From the NCBI GenBank assembly GCA_947626555.1, contig CANQSP010000011.1, positions 1 to 39,321 of the forward strand: a stretch of 39,321 bases of DNA, written 5' to 3'. Positions within the stretch are counted from its first letter, which is position 1; each line of letters starts with the position of its first letter. A program made the position numbers and the translations under genes. Source of the DNA: an uncultured Clostridia bacterium. GTDB lineage: Bacteria > Bacillota > Clostridia > TANB77 > CAG-508. Below the pieces are notes generated by a model. That model worked only from the letters and a program-made list of their open reading frames with translations. It did not search any database and was not told the DNA's origin. This document shows, piece after piece, positions 504 to 39,146 of this stretch.

Positions 504-3500
504 ATGAAAGAAAGAAACAAAGTGGCAAATGAAGAAGTAAATATGCAAGGAGAAACAAATATGCAAGAGAAAGGCAAGATAAGAAAAAAAGAAAAAATGT
601 TCGCGGGGGGGGGTACGGATTAGTACCAAAACTACTATTACCAATAATGGTAGTGTTAATATTGTTAGGCACAATAATAACTGCAATATTTAATAAACCA
701 CAAAACTTCAAAACGAGCCTAAATCCAGAACTAGCAAGAGCAATGGAATACCAAAAAGTAGAGAAAGGACAAGAAGCAGTAACAGTAGACCCAGAACAAT
801 ACCCAGACTATGCAAATGGTATATATCCATATGTTCAATTTGACGCGTTCTTTCTAAGAGATTTAGATAGTGATGGGGATGCAGATGGAGTAAGAGGAAC
901 ATGTAATGAAGTAGGAAAAGAAGATACACTTTACATAGAATTAAGACAACTAACAAATGGATACATAAAAGATGGAGCAACAATAACGATAAATGGACAA
1001 GCAGGAAAAGAGAGAAACTTTTATTTAGAAACCGCCATAGTAAAAGATAGTGAGATAAAAGAAAATAGTATAGGAAATAATGTAAACACAATAACATTAA
1101 ATCAAATAGGCAATGGAGGAAACGGAGTACAAAAGCTATTAACAGGAATAGTAAAAAGTGGAGACTATACATATAATTCAAGGAAAACAGAGGCCATAGG
1201 AAATAACATAGAAAATTATAGTAAAGAAAACACAATAACATTCAAAGGAATACATGTAAGAGATGATGGAGATGGAAGAACAACAGAAATACCAATAGAG
1301 AAAACAGTAAAATTCACAGTAGACTGGTATGGAGACGTAAAAACAGAAATACCAGAGCGTATAAATTATTTAGACAATATAAGACAAAATGGAGATATAG
1401 AACACGCAATAGATGAAGAAAATAATGAAATAAATTTAGAATTCACAGTAGGAGTAGAAGAAGTAAATAATAAATTAATATTAAGTAAATCATACATAGA
1501 AGGAGAGTTACCACAATTAAGTGGATATGACCCAAAGAAAGTAGAAATAACAGGAATAAATGTAAAATATACATATGATAAAGACACAAGAAGATTCACA
1601 GCAGAAAGGCAAGTAGTATTAGATGATGAGAAAAATTTAACAGAGCAAGTAAAAAATGTAACAACAGTAGCATATGATGGAACAGATTCATCAGATACAA
1701 ATAAAAGGTATAATAAGTATACAATAAAAGTAACATATGATATAGAAGCATACAAAGCATTAGGAGAAGATGAAGAAGGACATAATGCAACAATAGAATA
1801 CAGAGTACCGATAAAAGCATATTATGAAGGTTACAACAATAAGAATAATCAATTTGGAAGTCCTAAAAAATCAAATACAGCACAAAACACATTTGTAATA
1901 ACATTTAGAAAAATAGAAGGAGAATTAGCAAGGTTTGATGTATATGTAGGAGAATATATAAGCAAACCAACATATAGATATGTAGTATCAAAGCAAAAGC
2001 CACTTAAAATATATAATGAAGTATCAGAAGGGGAGCAAGAAGACTATTACACTGTAGAATGGTATGCGGTAATGGGAACAGCAGAAAATAAGAAAGTAAT
2101 AATGAAAGAAAGTAAAGATAATGCATTAGAATATACATCAGATCAATTTTTAAAAACAGACAATAATAAAGAAAGCATGGAAGAAGTATCAAGTTTTGTA
2201 GGAATATACTTTAGCGACCCAATAAACATGTTAGGAGAAGAAGGAGAAATAAAGGTATACGATGATGAAACCAATATATTACTTGCAACATTTAATAAAG
2301 ATAATTGGAGTAAATATATGCAAAATACCCCATATAAGTACGAATTACCAGTAAAACACATAAGAATAGAAACGAGTAATGTAAATAAAGATAGTTATTT
2401 AAATGTATATCATATAAAAGAAATAAATGACGAAGCAATAATAAACCAATATTCAAAAGAAGATTTTGAACAGTTAAAACAAATACAATCAACATTAGTG
2501 GGATATTTAAAAGATACAGATCCAGAAACAGAGAATGAACTTATTAATACAGATACAAACTATGCATATTATGAAGCACCAGTATCAGTAGCAAATGTAA
2601 GAATAAATAAAACAGCAATATCAACACAAGAAACAGAAGAAAATTTTGAAATACAAATAGAAACAGAAGCAAATGAACAATATAATGAAGTAAAATGGAC
2701 AAATGGTGCATTTTTATTAAAGCTGCCAGAAGATATAGTAGATGTAGAGATAGATAAAGTAAGTATAAATAATAATCAAGTTGCATTAGTAAGTTATGAA
2801 GAATACGAAGAAGAAATATTAAATGGAAAAGGACAAAATGAAATATGTAGATTTATAAAAGTAAACACAGAAAATGAAAAAGAAGCAAGTTACACAATAA
2901 CAATAAATTGTAAATTAACACCAGACCCAAGAATACCAACAAAAACAGAAAATATAGAATTGTATGCATATAATGAGAACAATCCAAATTATTATTACTC
3001 TGATAAAGATACATATGATGTAAATGATAACCTAAACGAAACAGAGCAAGTAAATAAAAGAGAGGTAGCACTAAGTTTGGTATCACCAAACTCATTATTA
3101 ACAAGTCAAGTAGCAAGTAACTATGATACAAAAGGAAGTACAGCAGTAGCACCACAAAAAGCAATAGTATCAAGAGACCAACAAAAAGCAACAGTAACAA
3201 TAGAAATAAATAATAATTATTTAAATGCCGTAAGTCAAGTAAAAATATTAGGAAAAATACCAAAGAAAGAAAACACATATGTAATAAATGGAACAAATAT
3301 GGGTTCAGTTTTTGATGCAGAATTAACAAAACCAATAACGTTGCCAGAAGAATTACAAGAAGGAACAAAAATATACTATTCATATGAAGATAAAGTAACA
3401 AAAGAAATAAATGATGGAGCAAGTAATTGGATGTCTGAAGACACAGAAGGAATAGATTATACAAAGGTAAAAAGCTTCTTAATAGATTTACAGGAAAGGC

Positions 3501-6500
3501 AATTAGCTCATGAAGAAAAGCATGAAATAAGTTATGAAATAAAACTACCAGGAGGATTAAAATATAACGAAGTAAGTTATAGCCATCATGCAATATATTT
3601 TAGTTTGGAAACAGAGCATGGAAGATATAAAACACAAACAGAGCCAAATAAATTAGGATTTATGGTAGCAAAACGATATGATTTAGAATTGACAAAATAT
3701 CAATTAGGAACAGAGCAAGTGGTACCAGGAGCAACATATAGTGTGCAAGAGATAGAAGATGTAGAAAGTAACGAACAAACTCAAAGTGTCATTGAGCAGA
3801 AAGAAGCAAAAACAAGAGTAACATTAGTAGATGGAAAATTCACACTAAAAGATTTATATTTAGATAGAACATATATAGTAAAAGAAATAAAAAGTCCAGG
3901 GCAATATGAATTAAATAAAGATGAAATAAAATTTAAAGTTACAGAGACAGAAGAAGGGTTACAAGTAGAAAATTTAAATAATATAGAAGTGGGTAACACA
4001 ACAGGAAATCAAAAAGCAACTGTGAAAAAATTAGAAATGCAAAAAGTAGAAAATGCAGATGATAAAAGTAATAAAGATAAGTTAGTGCTAGAAGTACAAG
4101 ATGAAGTAAAAGCAAATTTAACAATTACAAAAGTAGAAAAGTTAGAAACAACAATTGCAGGACCAGAATTCCAAGGAAGTCAATCACAAGTGATAGAAAA
4201 TGAGATACCAGTAGTAGGAGCACGTTTTAAATTAACAGGAGGAGACTTACCTGAAACAGGAAAAGTAATAAATTCAGATAATAAAGGAAAATTAAATATA
4301 AAAGGATTAAAAATAGGAGAAGAATACACTTTAGAAGAAGTAAAAGCTGAAGGGTATTATTTAGCAAGCCCTGTAAAATTTAAAATAGTACATGAAGCAG
4401 GACAAGATTATAAAATACAAATGATAGAACGAGAAGAAACAGTAGGAGCAGAAGAAAGTTCAATAAGAAAAGATACAGTAACATTAACAAAAGATGAAAA
4501 TAATATACCAATAGCAAGCTTCACAATGGAAGATGAGAAAATACCAAGATACACATTAGAAATAATAAAGAGAGAAAAAGTGACAGAAACAATAGTAGAA
4601 GAAAGTGCAAAAGAAATTCAAAAACAATTAGAAGAGCAAGCAGGAGCGCAAGAAGTAGCAGAGCCATCAGAGCAGGGAATAACATATATACAAGGGGTAA
4701 AATTTAGGTTATACAAAGGAACAAAACAAATAGGAGAATATGAAACAGATGGAAGTGGAAAAATAACAATAGGAGATTTGTATGCATACGAAGAAGAAAG
4801 AAAAATAGATCAAACATATACCTTAAAAGAAATATTTGCACCAGAAGGATATTCAAAAGTAAAGGATATAACATTTAAAGTAGAGAAAACAGAAGATGGA
4901 TTACAATTCCAAGAAACATTAGAAGAAGGAAAAACAGCTAAAGAATTTGAAGTAGTAGATAATGTAATAAAATTGACAGTAGAAGATAATCCATCATTTA
5001 GATTAATAAAAGAAGATGCAGAAACCAAAACTCCAATAGCAAATGTAAAATTTGCAATATATAATGTAGATAATGGAGAAGAGCCGGCAACAAATAGTGG
5101 AGGTGAAATAATAGGAGATAGGGAGACAATAAATGGAAAGGAATACTACACAGTAAAAACGAATTTGCAAGGAGAGATAACAGCAGATTTAACAGAAGGA
5201 CTATATAAAGCTGTAGAATTAGATGCACCAGAAAAATATGATATAGAAAATAAAGTGTATTATTTTGGTATAGGAGCATCAAGGGAAGGAATAAAAGACG
5301 TAAAAATAGACTGGGGAAAAGGAGCAGGAGGAACAGATTATGATTATATAAATTCAGTAGCAGAAACAAATGATGGAGGAATAATAGCAGGAGGGTATTT
5401 CAAAAGTATTAGTATCAATTTAGGAGAAGGAGTAAACGGAGAAGATATAGAAGTAAAAAATAACGGAAGCAATGATGGACTAATAATAAAATACAATGAA
5501 GAAGGCAAAGTAGACTGGGCAAAAGGAGCAGGAGGAACAGGTGATGATCAAATAGAATCAGTAGCATCAACAAGTGACGGAGGATATATCGCAGGAGGCT
5601 ATTTCAGTAGTAGTATCAATTTGGGAGAAGGAGTAAACGGAGAAGATGTAGAAGTAAAAAATAACGGAAGCAATGATGGACTAATAATAAAATACAATGA
5701 GTTAGGGCAAGTAGAATGGGCAAAAGTAGTAGGAGGAAATTCTCAGGATTATATACAATCAATAGCTACAACAAGTGACGGAGGATATATAGCAGGAGGG
5801 TATTTCAAGAGTTCAACTATCAATTTAGGAGAAAGAGTAAACGAAGGAGATGTAGAAGTAAAAAATAACGGAAGCAATGATGCACTAATAATAAAATACA
5901 ATGAGTTAGGGCAAGTAGACTGGGCAAAAGTAATAGGAGGAACAGATGATGATGAAATATTATCAATAGCTACAACAAGAGACGGAGGCTGTATAGCAGG
6001 AGGGTATTTCAAGAGTTCAACTATCAATTTAGGAAAAGGAGTAAACGGAGAAGAAGTAGTAGTAAATAATGGAAATAAGGATGGATTAATAATAAAATAT
6101 AATGAAGAAGGCAAAGTAGAATGGACAAAAGTAGTAGGAGGAGAAGATGGGGATGAAATATTGTCAGTAGCATCAACAAATGATGGAGGCTATATAGCAG
6201 GAGGATATTTTGTGAGTAAAAGTATCAATTTAGGAGAAGGAGTAAACGGAAGAGATGTAGAAGTAAAAAATAACAAACTTAATGATGGACTAATAATCAA
6301 ATACAATGAAAAAGGTAAAGTAGACTGGGCAAAAGTAGTAGGGGGAGATACATTTGATTATATAAAATCAGTAGCTACGACAAGTGATGGAGGCTATATA
6401 GCAGGAGGGTATTTTGTAAGTGAAAGTATCAATTTAGGAGAAGGAGCAAACGAAGAAGTAGTAGTAGGTAGTAATGGACATTATGATGGACTAATAATAA

Positions 6501-9500
6501 AATACAATGAAGAAGGCAAAGTAGATTGGGCAAAAGTAGTAGGAGGAACAAGTGATGATGAAATAAGGTCAGTAGCATCAACAAGTGATGGAGGAATAAT
6601 AGCAGGCGGGGATTTCCAAAGTGAAATTATCAAGTTAGAAGGAGTAAACGGAAGAGATGTAGAAATAAAAAATAATGGAAGTGCTAATATGTTAATAATA
6701 AAATATTCTTCAATAGAAAAACCACAAATAGTAACAAAGCAGGCAAAAGTATTAGGAGGAAATTATCAGGATTATATACAATCAGTAGCTACAACAAGTG
6801 ACGGAGGCTATATAGCAGGAGGGTATTTTAATACAAATAGTATCAATTTAGGAGAAGGAGTAAACGGAGAAGACATAATAGTAAATGCAAAAGGGAACAA
6901 TGATGGACTAATAATCAAATACAATGAAGAAGGTAAGGTGGAATGGGCAAAAGTAGTAGGAGGAAAGAGTCCAGATAAAATACAATCAGTAGTATCAACA
7001 AGTGATGGAGGAATAATAGCAGGAGGGTATTTCTATTCAGATAGTATCAATTTAGGAGAAGGAGTAAACGGAGGAAATGTAGAAGTAAAAAATAACGGAA
7101 ATTATGATGGAATAATAATAAAATACAATAAGGAAGGAAAAGTAGAATGGGCAAAAGTAGTAGGAGGAACAGATGCTGATTATATAGAATCAGTAGCATC
7201 AACAAGTGACGGAGAAATAATAGCAGGAGGGTATTTCTATTCAGATAGTATCAATTTAGGAGAAGGAGTAAATGGAGAAGACATAATAGTAAATGCAAAA
7301 GGGAACAATGATGGACTAATAATCAAATACAATGAAGAAGGCAAAGTAGATTGGGCAAAAGTAGTAGGAGGAACAAGTTATGATGAAATAAGTTCAGTAG
7401 CTTCAACAGCAGACGGAGGCTATATAGCAGGAGTGAGATTCAATAGTAGTATTATCACGTTAGAAGGATTAAATGGAAAAGAAGTAGAAGTAAAAAATAA
7501 CGGAAATAGTGATGGACTAATAATCAAATATAATGGAGAAGGTAAGGTAGAATGGGCAAAGGTAGTAGGAGAAAAATATACAGATGAAATAACATCAGTA
7601 GCAACAACAAGTGACGGAGGCTATGTAGCAGGAGGAAATTTCAATAGTAGTAGTATCACGTTAGAAGGAGTAAATGGAGAAGAAGTACAAGTAAAAAGAA
7701 ACGGAATTTCTAACGGACTAATAATAAAATACAATGAAGAAGGGCAAGTAGAATGGGCAAAAGGAGTAGGAGGAACAAGTGATGATGAAATAAACTCAGT
7801 AGCTGAAGCAATAGACGGAGGAATAATAGCAGGAGGGTGTTTAAAATCTGATAGTATTAATGTAGGAGAAGGAGTAGTAGTAAAAAATAACGGAAGTGAT
7901 GATGGACTAATAATCAAATACAATCCAAAAGGATTAGTAGAATGGGCAAAAGTAGTAGGAGGAACAGATGATGATGAAATATTGTCAGTAGCTTCAACCA
8001 GCGACGGAAGTGTTATAGCAGGAGGGTACTTTGAGAGTGATGTAATAAAATTGGATAACGACCATACATTAACTAATAATGGCTCATATGATGGAATGAT
8101 AATAAAAATAAATGAAGAAATGGGAGTACCAGAAGTACAAGAATTAAAAGTAGAAAATGAATTAAAAGAATTTAAAATAACAACAGATGTAGAAGAAATA
8201 GCAGGAGTAAAAGGAGGAAAAATATCAGGGGAAGGTTTAAACCCATATGAAAAAGTAAAATATGATGGCGAAAGCACAAAACCAATAACAATAACACCAG
8301 AAGAAGGATATGAATTAGTAAAAGTAACAGAAAATGGAATTATACAAGAAATAAGTAAGCTTACCCAAAGTGAAGACAAAAAAACATATACCTATCCACA
8401 ATTTACAGGAATGAAAGAAGATAGACATATAGTAGTAACGTTTGCAAAAACAGACGAAAAAGTTATAATAAATAAAACAGATAAAAATGGAAAACCATTA
8501 GCAGGAGCAAAGTTTAGAATAGAACAAATAGAAGAAAGACAACCACCAGAAGGAGTAATAGGAGATATAGCAAATAATAATGGACAGATATACTATTATG
8601 CAGATAAACAAGAAGGAAAAGAAATATATGGCTTATTAGGAAAAATAGAAAAGAATGGTAATCAAACAGGAATTACAATAACAGAACAAAAAGTAGAACA
8701 AGAAGGAATATTAGGAGAGAAGATAGATGATACAGGTGATGACAAATATTGGTTTGTAGAAACAATTAATGATGACGGAACAAAATATTATGAACCTACA
8801 AATGGGAAAAAATATCAAGAAGCACATGATGGAAGTGGAAATAAGATAAATACAACAGCACATTCATATTTTGAAATAGATTTAAGGAATTTTGATAGAG
8901 ATGTAGTAGTAAAAATAAATGCAGAAGCATCAAGTGAAAGTTATGATTATGGATATGCAACAATAACAAGAACAGAAGAAATGCCACAATTACAATATAG
9001 TAATAGTGTAAGCAATGGTCAATTTATGAGAATATCAGGAACAGCATCGGGTACATATACATCACAAGTATTACTTGCAGGAAATAAGTATTATTTACAT
9101 TTAGGGTATGAAAAAGATTCGATTCAAGACTCAAATGATGACAGAATTAAAGTAAATAGCATAGAGTTATACGAAGCAACCTGTGAGACATATTATTTTG
9201 AAGAAAGTGGAGAAGGATATGTATCAAATAATAAAGAAAAGACCAATACAGTAGCAAATTCATACATACCAATAGACTTAAGAGATAGAGGACAAGATGA
9301 GCATATAGCAGTAGTATTAAATGCTCAAATATCAAGTTATATATTTAATTATGGATATGCTACAATAACAAATACAACAACAGCACCATCATATAGTAGT
9401 TCAACAGGAAGATTTATATATATTTCGGAAAATCAAGATGCAAAAGATTATGAAATGACATTACAAGGAGGAAATTTATATTATTTACATTTAGGCTATA

Positions 9501-11998
9501 GAAATTATTCTAGTTCAGGTTCATATGATAATATATTTAAAATAAACTATATAAAAACATATGAAACAAAAGAGGTGCAGTTTAATTTTGAAGAAAAAGA
9601 TGAGACAATAGAACAAGGAGGGGCACAAGCACGAGAACTAGTAAGCAATAAATATGTATCAACAAATAAAGGGCAGGCAAATACGGAAGCAAATTCATAT
9701 ATACCAATAAATTTAGAAGGAAAAACAGGAAAATATAATATAACAGTAAATGCAGAAATATCAAGTCAAAGTGGTGGAGATTATGGCTATGCAACAATAA
9801 CAGAAAATAACATAGATAGAGTAACATACAGTGATAATACAGATGATAAGAAAAGATTTATATATATATCAGGAACACAAACAGCTACAAATTATACAAT
9901 AGAAGTAGGTGGGGGAAAAGAATATCGATTACATTTAGGATATTATAAAAATGCAACAACAGATTTAGGAAATGACGAATTTATAGTAAATAGTGTAGAA
10001 GTAACATTAAGTGACAGTGAATTATTATTTGTAGATGAAATAGAAACAGATGCAAATGGTCAAATATTCTTAAATTTATCACAAGGAAAGTATAATATAA
10101 CAGAAACAGAAGCACCAGAAGGATATGAAATAGCAAATCCAACAGTTGTATATGATACAAGAACAGCAAAAAAAAGAGAAATAACAATACAAAATAATAA
10201 AAGACCAAAATTAATAGTACATCACTATGTAAAAGGAACAGATGAACCAGAACAGGAACCAACTAGGGTAGCAGAAGATGAAGAATATATAGGAAGTAGC
10301 CAAGTAGAAGATGGAAAATATCAAGAGTATGAAACAAAACCAAAAATGAACTTGAGTGAATATGAATTAGATTATGTTTTACAAGAAGACGGACAAAAAG
10401 AATATAAAATGCCAGAAAAATGGAAAGGAACATATGATCCAGAAAATGTAGATGAAAACGGAGAAATAGTAGTAACGTATTATTATGTAGCAAGGAAAGT
10501 GCCATTAACAGTACATCATTACATACAAGGAACAACAACAAGAGTACCATTAGCTAAAGGAGGAGAGGCACAAGATGAAAAGGCAGAAGGAGATTTAAAT
10601 GAGCAATATCCAACTCATATGTTATCAGAAGAGCAAATAGATGAAAAATATGAACAAGTAGAAGGACAAGAAGATATAACGGCAACATTTGCATATCCAG
10701 AAGTAGAGGTAATATACTACTATAAACCAGTGGAAAGAGAATTAATAATAAATAAATATGCAGAAGATGTAAAAACACCATTAGCAGAAGCAAAATTTGA
10801 AATAAAAGAGAAAGGAAGTTTAGAAGAAGGAGAAATATATACAACCGACGAAAAAGGAAAAATAACTGTGAAATTGCCAGTGGGAGAATATGAAATTACA
10901 GAGGTAGAAGCACCAGATGGCTATCAAGTAAAGAAAGAAGCAATACCAAATGTAACAATAACAAGAGAGACACAAGAGGTAACGCAGGTAAATGTAACAA
11001 ATGAACAATATGTAGCAGAAGTAATAGTAAATCACTATATATATAACAAAAAATTAGAAAATCCATATACAACACAAAAAGTAACATTGTCAAGTGGAGA
11101 GCAAGCATCAGAGCAAATAATAACGGGACACATAGGAGATATATATGGAACGAGGGCGATAGAAAATCTAGCAGAGGGCTACGAATTATATGAAGAACCA
11201 GATAATAGCGGAGGAATAATGTCAAAAGAGCCAGAACATGTAAATTACTATTATATTTCAGAAGCAGTGATAAAGGAAGATAGCATAACAAAAGACGGAA
11301 CACAAATAATAACATCAAAAGATGAAGCAGTACATTATGAAATAAAATATACAGCAAAAGTAAGCTATTATGAAGGAAATGCGACTGTTACAATAACAGA
11401 TACGTTGCCATATAACTTAGACCAAGAAGCAATGAAAAAAATTGAAGGAGTAGATGATTCTCAAGTTGATTGGTTAGAAAAACTTTTAAATGGAGGAACA
11501 TATGATGATAACGCAAAAACAATAACTTGGACAGAAACATATAATAATATAAATACAGCAGAAGAAGATAATTTAGAAAAAGAAATAGCAATAGAAAAAG
11601 ATATAACAGTAATTTATAGTGGAATAAGCACAGCACAAACAAGTACAGAAATTACAAATAAAGTAAAAGGAAAAATAGAATTAGATGCAACAGACAAAAC
11701 AAAAGAAACAGAAGAAGTAACACACACTACTACAACAAAATTTGTAAAAGATGTAAAAGTAACAAAGAAATGGGAGCATGGAGCAAACATATATGAAAGG
11801 CCAAGCAAAGTAAAGGTGGTACTAAAGAAAGGAACAGAACAAGTAGGACAACAAGTACTAGATGCAGCCAATAATTGGACATATACATTTGAAGGATTAC
11901 CTAAGTATGATGAGTCGACAGGAGAAGAAATAGAATATATTGTAGAGGAGCAAGAGGTAGAAGGAGAAAGTTTAGATTACTATAAAAGAGCAGTATAG
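504..11998 (+). CDS. Giant Cna_B/SpaA-repeat surface protein with beta-propeller and MucBP-like repeats; the frame is interrupted at a 9-G tract (605-613), so the annotated ORF starts at 647
   Basis: SD ggagg (491-495) and ATG 504 encode MKERNKVANEEVNMQGETNMQEKGKIRKKEKMFAGG. One extra G would join this to YGLVPKLLLPIMVVLILLGTIITAIF (TM) and the 3783-aa ORF. Cna_B signatures include KPLAGAKFRIEQ, YNITETEAPEGYEIANP and VTKKWEHG..RPSKVKVVLKKG; MucBP-like LIVHHYVKGT. Confidence 0.85.
605..613 (+). repeat. Poly-G homopolymer tract (9 G) in the 5' coding region of the giant adhesin
   Basis: tcgcGGGGGGGGGtacgg; frame 504 ends at TAG 621-623, while the frame after the tract is open to 11998. Confidence 0.9.
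5300..8119 (+). repeat. 14 tandem ~65-70-aa beta-propeller-type repeats (7 + linker + 7)
   Basis: Repeating (V)(D/E)WAKVVGGTxxDxIxSVATTSDGGYIAGGYF..SINLGEGVNGEDVEVKNNGxxDGLIIKYNEEGK; 14 copies counted; linker SSIEKPQIVTK at 6707-6739 between copies 7 and 8. Confidence 0.85.
8848..10011 (+). repeat. Three copies of a ~110-aa predicted beta-sandwich module
   Basis: TxANSYIPIDL...VNAEISS..YGYATIT....RFIYISGT....YYLHLGY....D.I.VNSIE, starting near 8848, 9239 and 9678. Confidence 0.75.
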
Positions 11999-12028
11999 GG
12001 ACGGTTCTAAAAATCCGGAATATAGGGA

Positions 12029-12064
12029 CGGACATTAGCGTTAAAAAACAAACACTAATGTCCG
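12029..12064 (+). terminator. Hairpin after the adhesin, part of a GGGACGG repeat
   Basis: cggacattag...ctaatgtccg; GGGACGG occurs at 11998 and 12024. Confidence 0.5.
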
Positions 12065-12161
12065 TTATTATATTTTAAAAAACAAACATGAAGCATACTT
12101 TTTATGCATAAGATATATAAAAAAATGCTGAATAATAGCAAAAAATGGGGGAAAGTTTTTG

Positions 12162-12190: not shown

Positions 12191-12458
12191 GTATACATAA
12201 AAACTTAATTAAAATCTATTAATTTTCAAATTTTAGCACTAAAATAAGCTAAAAATCTAAAAAATTAAAGGTGCAACATTAGTTTATTTAATATTAAATT
12301 CCATAAAAATTAAAAATCTAAAAAAATTCCAAAAGATTCAGAAATAAAAGAAAAAATAAAAAAAAGAGAGTAAAATAGTTTTTTATAGTATATACACCTA
12401 TAAATAAAGTTTGACTTATAAAGCGGAAAATATTATAATAAAAGGAGGAAAGAAAAAA

Positions 12459-13508
12459 ATGAAAATATTAACGTATGAAGAGTGTTTACAATATATAAAC
12501 TCAAAAAACGAGATGCAGTTACATGAAGATAATGAAGAATATCATTATGATGAAAAATTAGATAACACACACGATAAAATATTTAGAGATTTACTATCAG
12601 ATGAAGAAGAAGCAGTAAAATTTATGAATAAGTTCTTTAAAGGCAAAAAGCAATTAAAAAAAGATGACTTAGAAAAATATAGTAATAGCTACATAACAAA
12701 GGAATATAAAAATAGAGAATCAGATATAGTATACAAAATAAAAAATACAAATACATTTATATTAATAGAACACCAATCGTATGTAAATACATTGATGCCA
12801 TATAGAATGTTAGAATATTCAGTAGAAATAATGAGGAGTGCAATGAATCAAGGAAAAGTGAAAAGTAACAAATATAAATGCCCAGAAGTAGTATTAATAG
12901 TTTTATATACAGGAAATGAAAAATGGAATGTAGAAAAAGAGTATAAAAGAATAACAGATAATGTTTTTAACTATGAAACGAATGGAACAAATAGTATATA
13001 TAATTTAATAGATATACACAACTATACGAAAGAAGAGTTAATAAATGGAAAAAGCATAGCAGAAAAAGCAATGGCAATAGAGAAATGTAAAACAGAAGAA
13101 GAATTAATAGAAACATTAGAAAAAGTAATAAGTGTAACAAAAGATGAAAAAAACGAAGAAAAATTAAGAAGAATAATACAGTATATATTAAGTTCGATAA
13201 TAGGAAAAGAGCAGGTAGAAATATTATTAAGTAAAATGAAGAAGGAGGAAAATGCTATGGCAGGAATGTTAATAACAAATTTAATGGAAGAGAGAAGAAA
13301 ATTAATAGCAGAGAGTGAAAAACGTGGAGAAGATCGTGGAATTAAAGTTGGTGAAAAACGTGGCGAAAAGCGTGGAATCAAAGTTGGAGTCATAAATGTA
13401 GCAAAAGAATTACTAAAAGAAGAAATGCCAATAGAAAAAATAATGAAGGCGACGAAGCTAAAAGAAGAAGAAATAGAAAAACTAAAAGAAGAACTTACTG
13501 GTGCATAA
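12459..13508 (+). CDS. Rpn family recombination-promoting nuclease / PD-(D/E)XK nuclease family transposase
   Basis: HDKIFRDLLSDEEEAVKFMNKFF; RESDIVYKIKNTNTFILIEHQSYVNTLMPYRMLEYSVEIM; SD aaaggagg before ATG 12459; C-terminal RGIKVGEKRG repeats. Confidence 0.85.
   Translation: MKILTYEECLQYINSKNEMQLHEDNEEYHYDEKLDNTHDKIFRDLLSDEEEAVKFMNKFFKGKKQLKKDDLEKYSNSYITKEYKNRESDIVYKIKNTNTFILIEHQSYVNTLMPYRMLEYSVEIMRSAMNQGKVKSNKYKCPEVVLIVLYTGNEKWNVEKEYKRITDNVFNYETNGTNSIYNLIDIHNYTKEELINGKSIAEKAMAIEKCKTEEELIETLEKVISVTKDEKNEEKLRRIIQYILSSIIGKEQVEILLSKMKKEENAMAGMLITNLMEERRKLIAESEKRGEDRGIKVGEKRGEKRGIKVGVINVAKELLKEEMPIEKIMKATKLKEEEIEKLKEELTGA
13317..13388 (+). repeat. Two tandem 36-bp units encoding a 12-aa repeat
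   Basis: gaaaaacgtggagaagatcgtggaattaaagttggt / gaaaaacgtggcgaaaagcgtggaatcaaagttgga. Confidence 0.9.
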
Positions 13509-38426: not shown

Positions 38427-39146
38427 ATGTTTGAAAGCAGGTATGGAAAATTTCTTACAATATTATTAATAATAGTTATTGTAGCAATTGTTGGGTTATT
38501 AGGATTTTTAGTTGTTAATTTAATAATCAACGCAAGTGATGATAATGAGGGAACAGAAGATGCAGAAAGGTTTATTAGTCAAGTAACAAATAAAGTAAAT
38601 CAAAATAAAGAAAATACAGCAGAAGTGAATGAGGTTGATAACAGTGTAGCAATACCTAACATAGAAGATAATACTCAACCACCAGCTCCTAGTGGTGGTA
38701 GTGGTTCATCAAGTGGTGGTTCAACATATGAATTTGAAGGATTTACTGCTATTGGTGCCATAGAAATACCTAGAACAGGGTTGACAAAAACAATATTAAA
38801 TGAAGTAACAGGTCAATCAATAAAAAAAGCAGTAGCTGTTTTATATCCATCAAATTTACAATTATTAAATGAACCAGGTAATGTAACAATAGTAGGACAT
38901 AATTATAGAAATGGTACATTCTTTTCAAATAACAAAAATATTCAAGAGGGAGATAAAATATATATAACAGATATTAAAGGTAGAAGAGTAGAATATACTG
39001 TATATAGAAAATATTTTACAACAGCAGAGGACTCAGATTTTATGATGAGAGATACAAATGGCAGAAGAGAAATTTCATTATCTACTTGTACCGAAGATGT
39101 TAAACAAAGACTAGTAATATGGGCATCAGCAGACCCAGGATATTAA
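38427..39146 (+). CDS. Sortase family protein
   Basis: N-terminal TM; IGAIEIPRTGL..VTIVGHNYRNGTFFSN..GDKIYITD..ISLSTCTEDVKQRLVIWA (His, TLxTC-type Cys, Arg). Confidence 0.88.
   Translation: MFESRYGKFLTILLIIVIVAIVGLLGFLVVNLIINASDDNEGTEDAERFISQVTNKVNQNKENTAEVNEVDNSVAIPNIEDNTQPPAPSGGSGSSSGGSTYEFEGFTAIGAIEIPRTGLTKTILNEVTGQSIKKAVAVLYPSNLQLLNEPGNVTIVGHNYRNGTFFSNNKNIQEGDKIYITDIKGRRVEYTVYRKYFTTAEDSDFMMRDTNGRREISLSTCTEDVKQRLVIWASADPGY

Follow-up and report, generated by a model that had tools for sequence, protein, structure and literature searches.

A nine-G tract as a probable slipped-strand ON/OFF switch for a giant surface protein in uncultured gut Clostridia

Why should a giant surface-protein gene lie out of frame with its own start signals, the two reading frames being separated by a run of nine G? 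The question arises from a 39,321-nucleotide stretch of DNA (the window) of an uncultured Clostridia bacterium, for which a preliminary description, made from the sequence, had proposed a phase-variable contingency locus. Direct reading confirms the layout given there at the base level, all on the forward strand. A Shine–Dalgarno (SD) sequence, ggagg, at 491–495 stands 8 bases 5′ of ATG 504–506, a start that is similar in the joined homologues G012:C18 and G014:C68. It opens a Lys/Glu-rich leader of 39 amino acids (504–623; MKERNKVANEEVNMQGETNMQEKGKIRKKEKMFAGGGTD*), which at its codon 34, inside the 5′ coding region, runs into exactly nine G (605–613, written GGGGGGGGG) and at the present tract length ends with TAG 621–623. 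The adjacent frame (614–11998, first residues YGLVPKLLLPIMVVLILLGTIITAIF) has no stop in 3795 codons and supplies, just 3′ of the tract, a signal anchor or membrane segment (LLLPIMVVLILLGTIITAIF, 632–691), the sole strongly hydrophobic stretch of the giant protein. In one of the three tract-length classes, leader and body are joined into one protein, whose computed length of 3831 amino acids agrees with the earlier figure of about 3831. No ATG, GTG, or TTG is found in the body frame of the window sequence ahead of ATG 647, which lies within the membrane segment and, as had been pointed out, has no SD.

The tract thus sits where a charged leader meets the signal anchor of a giant SpaA/Cna_B protein. 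SpaA matches (193 bits, six stretches) and a Cna_B match (54.8 bits) are both above the curated cut-offs, and delta-60-like repeats are weakly recognizable. The N-terminal domain is encoded at 830–1921 and the C-terminal Cna_B domain at 11753–11965 (residues 3717–3787 of P0002); a terminator-like inverted repeat with 11-base perfect arms follows past the stop codon (12028–12065). Neither an LPXTG wall-sorting signal nor a hydrophobic segment is present at the C-terminus, the only similar motif being an internal LPETG at residue 1215. The product should therefore be called a SpaA/Cna_B-domain protein that is only a putative sortase substrate; an adhesin role is suggested by its domain content. 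A sortase-domain protein is nevertheless encoded within the window, at 38427–39146. Directly 3′ of the giant gene lies a PF04754 gene (YhgA-like putative transposase, 12411–13508), and DNA related to this region is also found downstream of the tract locus G012:C27.

A run of nine G had been described as exceptional in such AT-rich DNA, and the numbers bear this out. The window contains 18% G and 11% C; computed from its own G-to-G frequency, the 39 kb window is expected to hold 0.009 runs of at least nine G and the 1.45 Mb genome 0.32. The genome has exactly three runs of at least eight G, of 9, 9, and 10 G, and all three share the context AARAATGTTYGYS-Gn, with a short leader that has an SD on one side and a surface gene on the other; put otherwise, AARAATGTTCGYS followed by G marks the 5′ end of surface-protein loci in all three cases. 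Among family genomes, any run of at least nine G is present in only 15 of 118, and in no inspected genome other than the window's own does such a run stand in the element context. The shared context argues that the window tract is not a chance run or a lone assembly slip. Most other runs of at least eight G in the genus were rejected as examples of the same switch, being without the leader/anchor layout, phage-like, or artefacts of long G runs. One contig (G025:C1, L136–L138) bears about ten runs of at least eight G, several of them spaced by about 1.5 kb and some located about 30–40 codons into phage-tail-like proteins, possibly representing phage poly-G switching. In G051:C83 (L169), a G9 tract lies where two glycosyltransferase-like frames meet (Alg14/Alg13-like by eye).

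The common context is a 15-base element, GAAAAAATGTTCGCG, at 591–605 of the window, which ends on the tract's first G. With a tract of at least seven G, it is found in four of 27 genus genomes (the genomes of the loci labelled G000, G012, G014, and G019) and in none of 366 other family genomes sampled. When the tract was not required, the element occurred 13 times in the four genomes, with at least seven G following in 12 of the 13, while its reversed control occurred in them not once. The bases are near-invariant among the 13 loci, and the conservation appears to go beyond the protein. At all 13 loci, G or C is the last base of the Val or Ala codon preceding the glycines, as compared to 88% A-ending Val/Ala codons in the window gene; the Phe codon is TTC at 11 of 13, against 28% TTC in that gene; and the tract glycines are all GGG. 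Such codon choice argues for conservation of the flank as DNA and against a mere protein motif. At two of the loci, G000:C5 and G012:C74, the element lies in a short ORF that no membrane segment follows in frame, and the next gene has a separate start; at G000:C5 this gene is FGE-like.

Across 85,462 species genomes, a scan returned the element in Lapin-007 bin5, Lapin-008 bin42, and SRR15730535 bin.30, along with a 2.8-kb contig of Lapin-019 bin41 and matches due to chance; L022, L025, L027, L028, L031, and L033 were discarded as chance or artefact. Viral contigs gave no match to the element. Going by their names, the three Lapin bins are rabbit-gut metagenome-assembled genomes (MAGs), so that a rabbit origin is likely. 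The window organism is apparently a gut commensal and no known pathogen.

If the tract is a switch, its length should differ among relatives, and the preliminary description had called for this comparison. Tract lengths of 7, 8, 9, 10, and 11 G, compared between species and paralogues only, were found at element loci, with no single fixed length. Ten loci can be scored for their state, all in MAGs, where homopolymer lengths can be wrong: three are joined, or ON (G012:C18, G014:C68, G014:C57), and seven are split, or OFF (the window, G000:C53, G012:C27, G012:C75, G014:C112, G019:C27, G019:C40). The joined loci have unlike tracts of 7, 8, and 9 G, and three of ten fits the one third predicted for random slippage length. 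Two orthologues, G014:C57 (ON) and G012:C27 (OFF), are 83% identical over 1.2 kb and stand in opposite states. Of two near-identical copies in G019, C40 has G9 and is split, while C22 has GGGGTGGGGA, an interrupted tract of in-frame length, and is joined, as would be expected of a fixed-ON form. In 406 compared codons, a single site distinguishes the C40 and C22 bodies; their upstream parts diverge more, a pattern that points to gene conversion.

Paralogues free of a tract indicate what the joined form looks like. The N-terminal domain is present in nine copies in the window genome, nine in G014, ten in G019, and five in G012. In about twenty tract-free paralogues across the genus, the SD, charged leader, and anchor all lie in one frame, showing that the joined form is normal. 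The dN/dS ratio of the window body against two intact paralogues is 0.41 and 0.31, and that of intact against intact is 0.36; the window body thus seems to evolve under the same constraint as intact genes, where a long-silent gene would look otherwise. In five adhesin paralogues (L122, L124, L125, L127, L129), found in G000 and G014, the leader is out of frame with the membrane segment but no long G run is present, so splitting has other causes too; these five are possible silent donors, cases of frameshifting, or decaying copies.

Taken together, the length differences and both states in relatives, the one-frame tract-free paralogues, and the interrupted in-frame duplicate uphold the earlier proposal of a contingency locus, and the G9 tract is very probably a slipped-strand ON/OFF switch acting on translation of the giant protein. 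The simplest objection is that the assembly is in error and the real tract is fixed at the in-frame length, the gene being always on. The window genome is, indeed, a single MAG of 75.9% completeness, and G tracts are hard to sequence: in Bifidobacterium breve, their lengths differed from the database record (PMC9187656). Such an error would, however, have to arise independently at seven of the ten homologous loci in four assemblies, while the joined loci have 7, 8, and 9 G; with one length wrong, the interrupted fixed-ON copy and the length variation among relatives would still stand. We consider this explanation highly improbable. The other way to read through a fixed tract is programmed ribosomal frameshifting or transcriptional slippage, by which the full protein would be made constantly in small amounts with no DNA switching. 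Homopolymers can promote both processes, and a hairpin is predicted 3′ of the window tract (z −2.7). Yet the required shift is not the same at all loci, and the three joined ones require no shift; hairpins are present at joined loci but absent from the split loci G014:C112 and G000:C53. Across the compared loci there is neither one shift direction nor a conserved stimulatory signal, as programmed frameshifting would call for. Hairpin-stimulated frameshifting was rejected, the folds being not conserved and not following the split state, and a fixed signal leaves the lengths of 7–11 unexplained. Frameshifting and transcriptional slippage are both very unlikely as the sole explanation; transcriptional slippage is possible in addition to DNA switching.

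Two further accounts can be weighed. Translation might begin at ATG 647, 3′ of the tract, which would leave the leader irrelevant or make it a regulatory upstream ORF. This codon is in frame and only 23 bases past the leader stop, but apart from having no SD, it would yield a protein without the charged n-region and with a truncated membrane segment. The split loci G014:C112, G019:C27, and G019:C40 have their first in-frame ATG only past that segment, so the option is not conserved, and the leader is part of the intact paralogues. A fixed nine-G tract with expression from 647, one of two outcomes named beforehand as overturning the proposal, is thus very unlikely; the other, all relatives fixed at 10 G, is unlikely too, since relatives vary in tract length. 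Finally, the gene could be a decaying pseudogene whose frame was broken once. One locus, G019:C50, where the run has shrunk to G4 and the frame is split, resembles such decay; in the window, however, 3795 codons without a stop and dN/dS values like those of intact paralogues speak against it, and other species have a tract at the same position in both states. Decay of the window gene can be given next to no credence.

According to the preferred slipped-strand switch, the leader would be translated from ATG 504 by means of its own SD into the G run, where at nine G its frame stops just past the tract, while one of three length classes would fuse leader and body into the full protein. Polymerase slippage would gain or lose Gs at high frequency, so that about one length in three is ON; cells in the OFF state would make only the 39-residue peptide and no surface protein, and the assembly presumably captured an OFF majority. 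Slippage as the source of the length variation, switching within a population, and the surface phenotype are what we infer from this arrangement. MutS is present in the window genome, so slippage would not be aided by its loss, and mismatch-repair loss was set aside as a cause. Since only some of the nine adhesin paralogues are switched, the switches may serve to diversify the surface coat cell by cell.

The tract may also mark a site of exchange. The leaders diverge upstream of about −18. G000:C53 and G014:C68 are similar from −150 to +3 and dissimilar after, whereas G012:C27 and G014:C57 are similar from −36 onward and dissimilar before. From these two pairs of related loci, it looks as if leaders and bodies can be exchanged close to the tract, which is to be taken as a lead. 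The 15-base element, for its part, may determine how often the tract slips or direct recombination.

Several known systems resemble this locus. The closest is that of B. breve UCC2003, where the sortase-dependent pilus genes bbr_0113 and bbr_1889 undergo measured slippage, with ON forms enriched in the mouse gut (PMC9187656). As in the window, a G tract of a gut Gram-positive bacterium separates a short leader from a large surface-protein ORF that has no start of its own, and the tract length decides fusion. B. breve differs in being an actinobacterium with an LPXTG pilin at the head of a sortase operon and one or two such loci; the part of the report available to us describes no common upstream DNA element or body exchange (PMC9187656). 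Gardnerella, likewise host-associated and Gram-positive, has many G/C tracts of at least eight bases, some at possible adhesins, and length variation has been demonstrated for one; most of its tracts, however, are upstream of genes, the phylum is another, and so, as far as tested, is the protein family (PMC11287997). In the Firmicute Listeria monocytogenes, a 5′ homopolymer of the surface-protein gene inlA toggles between a tiny peptide and the full protein, but the tract is poly(A) and concerns one gene (PMC2831843). Invertible switches of Clostridioides difficile, e.g., cwpV, likewise make cell-surface proteins of Clostridia phase-variable; they act by DNA inversion and not by homopolymer slippage (PMC2784873). 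Given the precedents in B. breve, Gardnerella, and Listeria inlA, the proposed switch would be of a known kind. In the limited literature searched, no report of poly-G phase variation in these Clostridia was found, nor a description of the lineage, the protein size, or a DNA element common to the tracts of different genes.

Why genomes rich in phase-variable loci seem confined to pathogens is a question raised in a 2025 review, which suggests database bias (PMC11868660). The present case is multi-locus and concerns giant surface proteins of uncultured, apparently commensal gut Clostridia. Annotation of single assemblies is predicted to cut such genes short or overlook them, and the conserved flank offers a handle to find and count these switches directly in metagenomic reads.

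A second tract type, GTAAGRAAATC-G9, was noticed in G019 only, at two loci, L069 (G019:C12, 6029–6037) and L070 (G019:C17, 9213–9221, reverse strand). Both have an SD-led leader with the membrane segment in the other frame, and both are split.

FGE-fold-like surface proteins are encoded at L063 (G012:C27), L140 (G014:C57), L070 (G019:C17), and L009 (G000:C5, 10391–11713), some of them behind a poly-G tract. G019 also carries a diversity-generating retroelement with a reverse transcriptase and a 136-base template repeat (L176, G019:C43, 1065–1205; L121, G019:C46; L180, G019:C28). Its variable copy upstream of an adhesin paralogue has 25 differing sites, 22 of them at template A, and a second template/variable pair at L180 has 21 of 23 differences at A. 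The 3′ ends of the FGE-fold-like genes resemble the G019 template repeat, differing mostly at A (22 of 36 for G012:C27). By this resemblance, some switch-bearing loci appear to encode FGE-fold proteins related to retroelement targets, and the same FGE-fold genes may be subject to both ON/OFF slippage and hypermutation. A wider picture is proposed tentatively and is rather doubtful in its full extent: a gut Clostridia lineage, most of whose named members come from rabbits, might use the 15-base element and poly-G as a standard cassette placed between leader and anchor in different surface genes, with leader/body recombination nearby, so that cells combine ON/OFF slippage, swapping of giant adhesins, and retroelement hypermutation of FGE-fold proteins.
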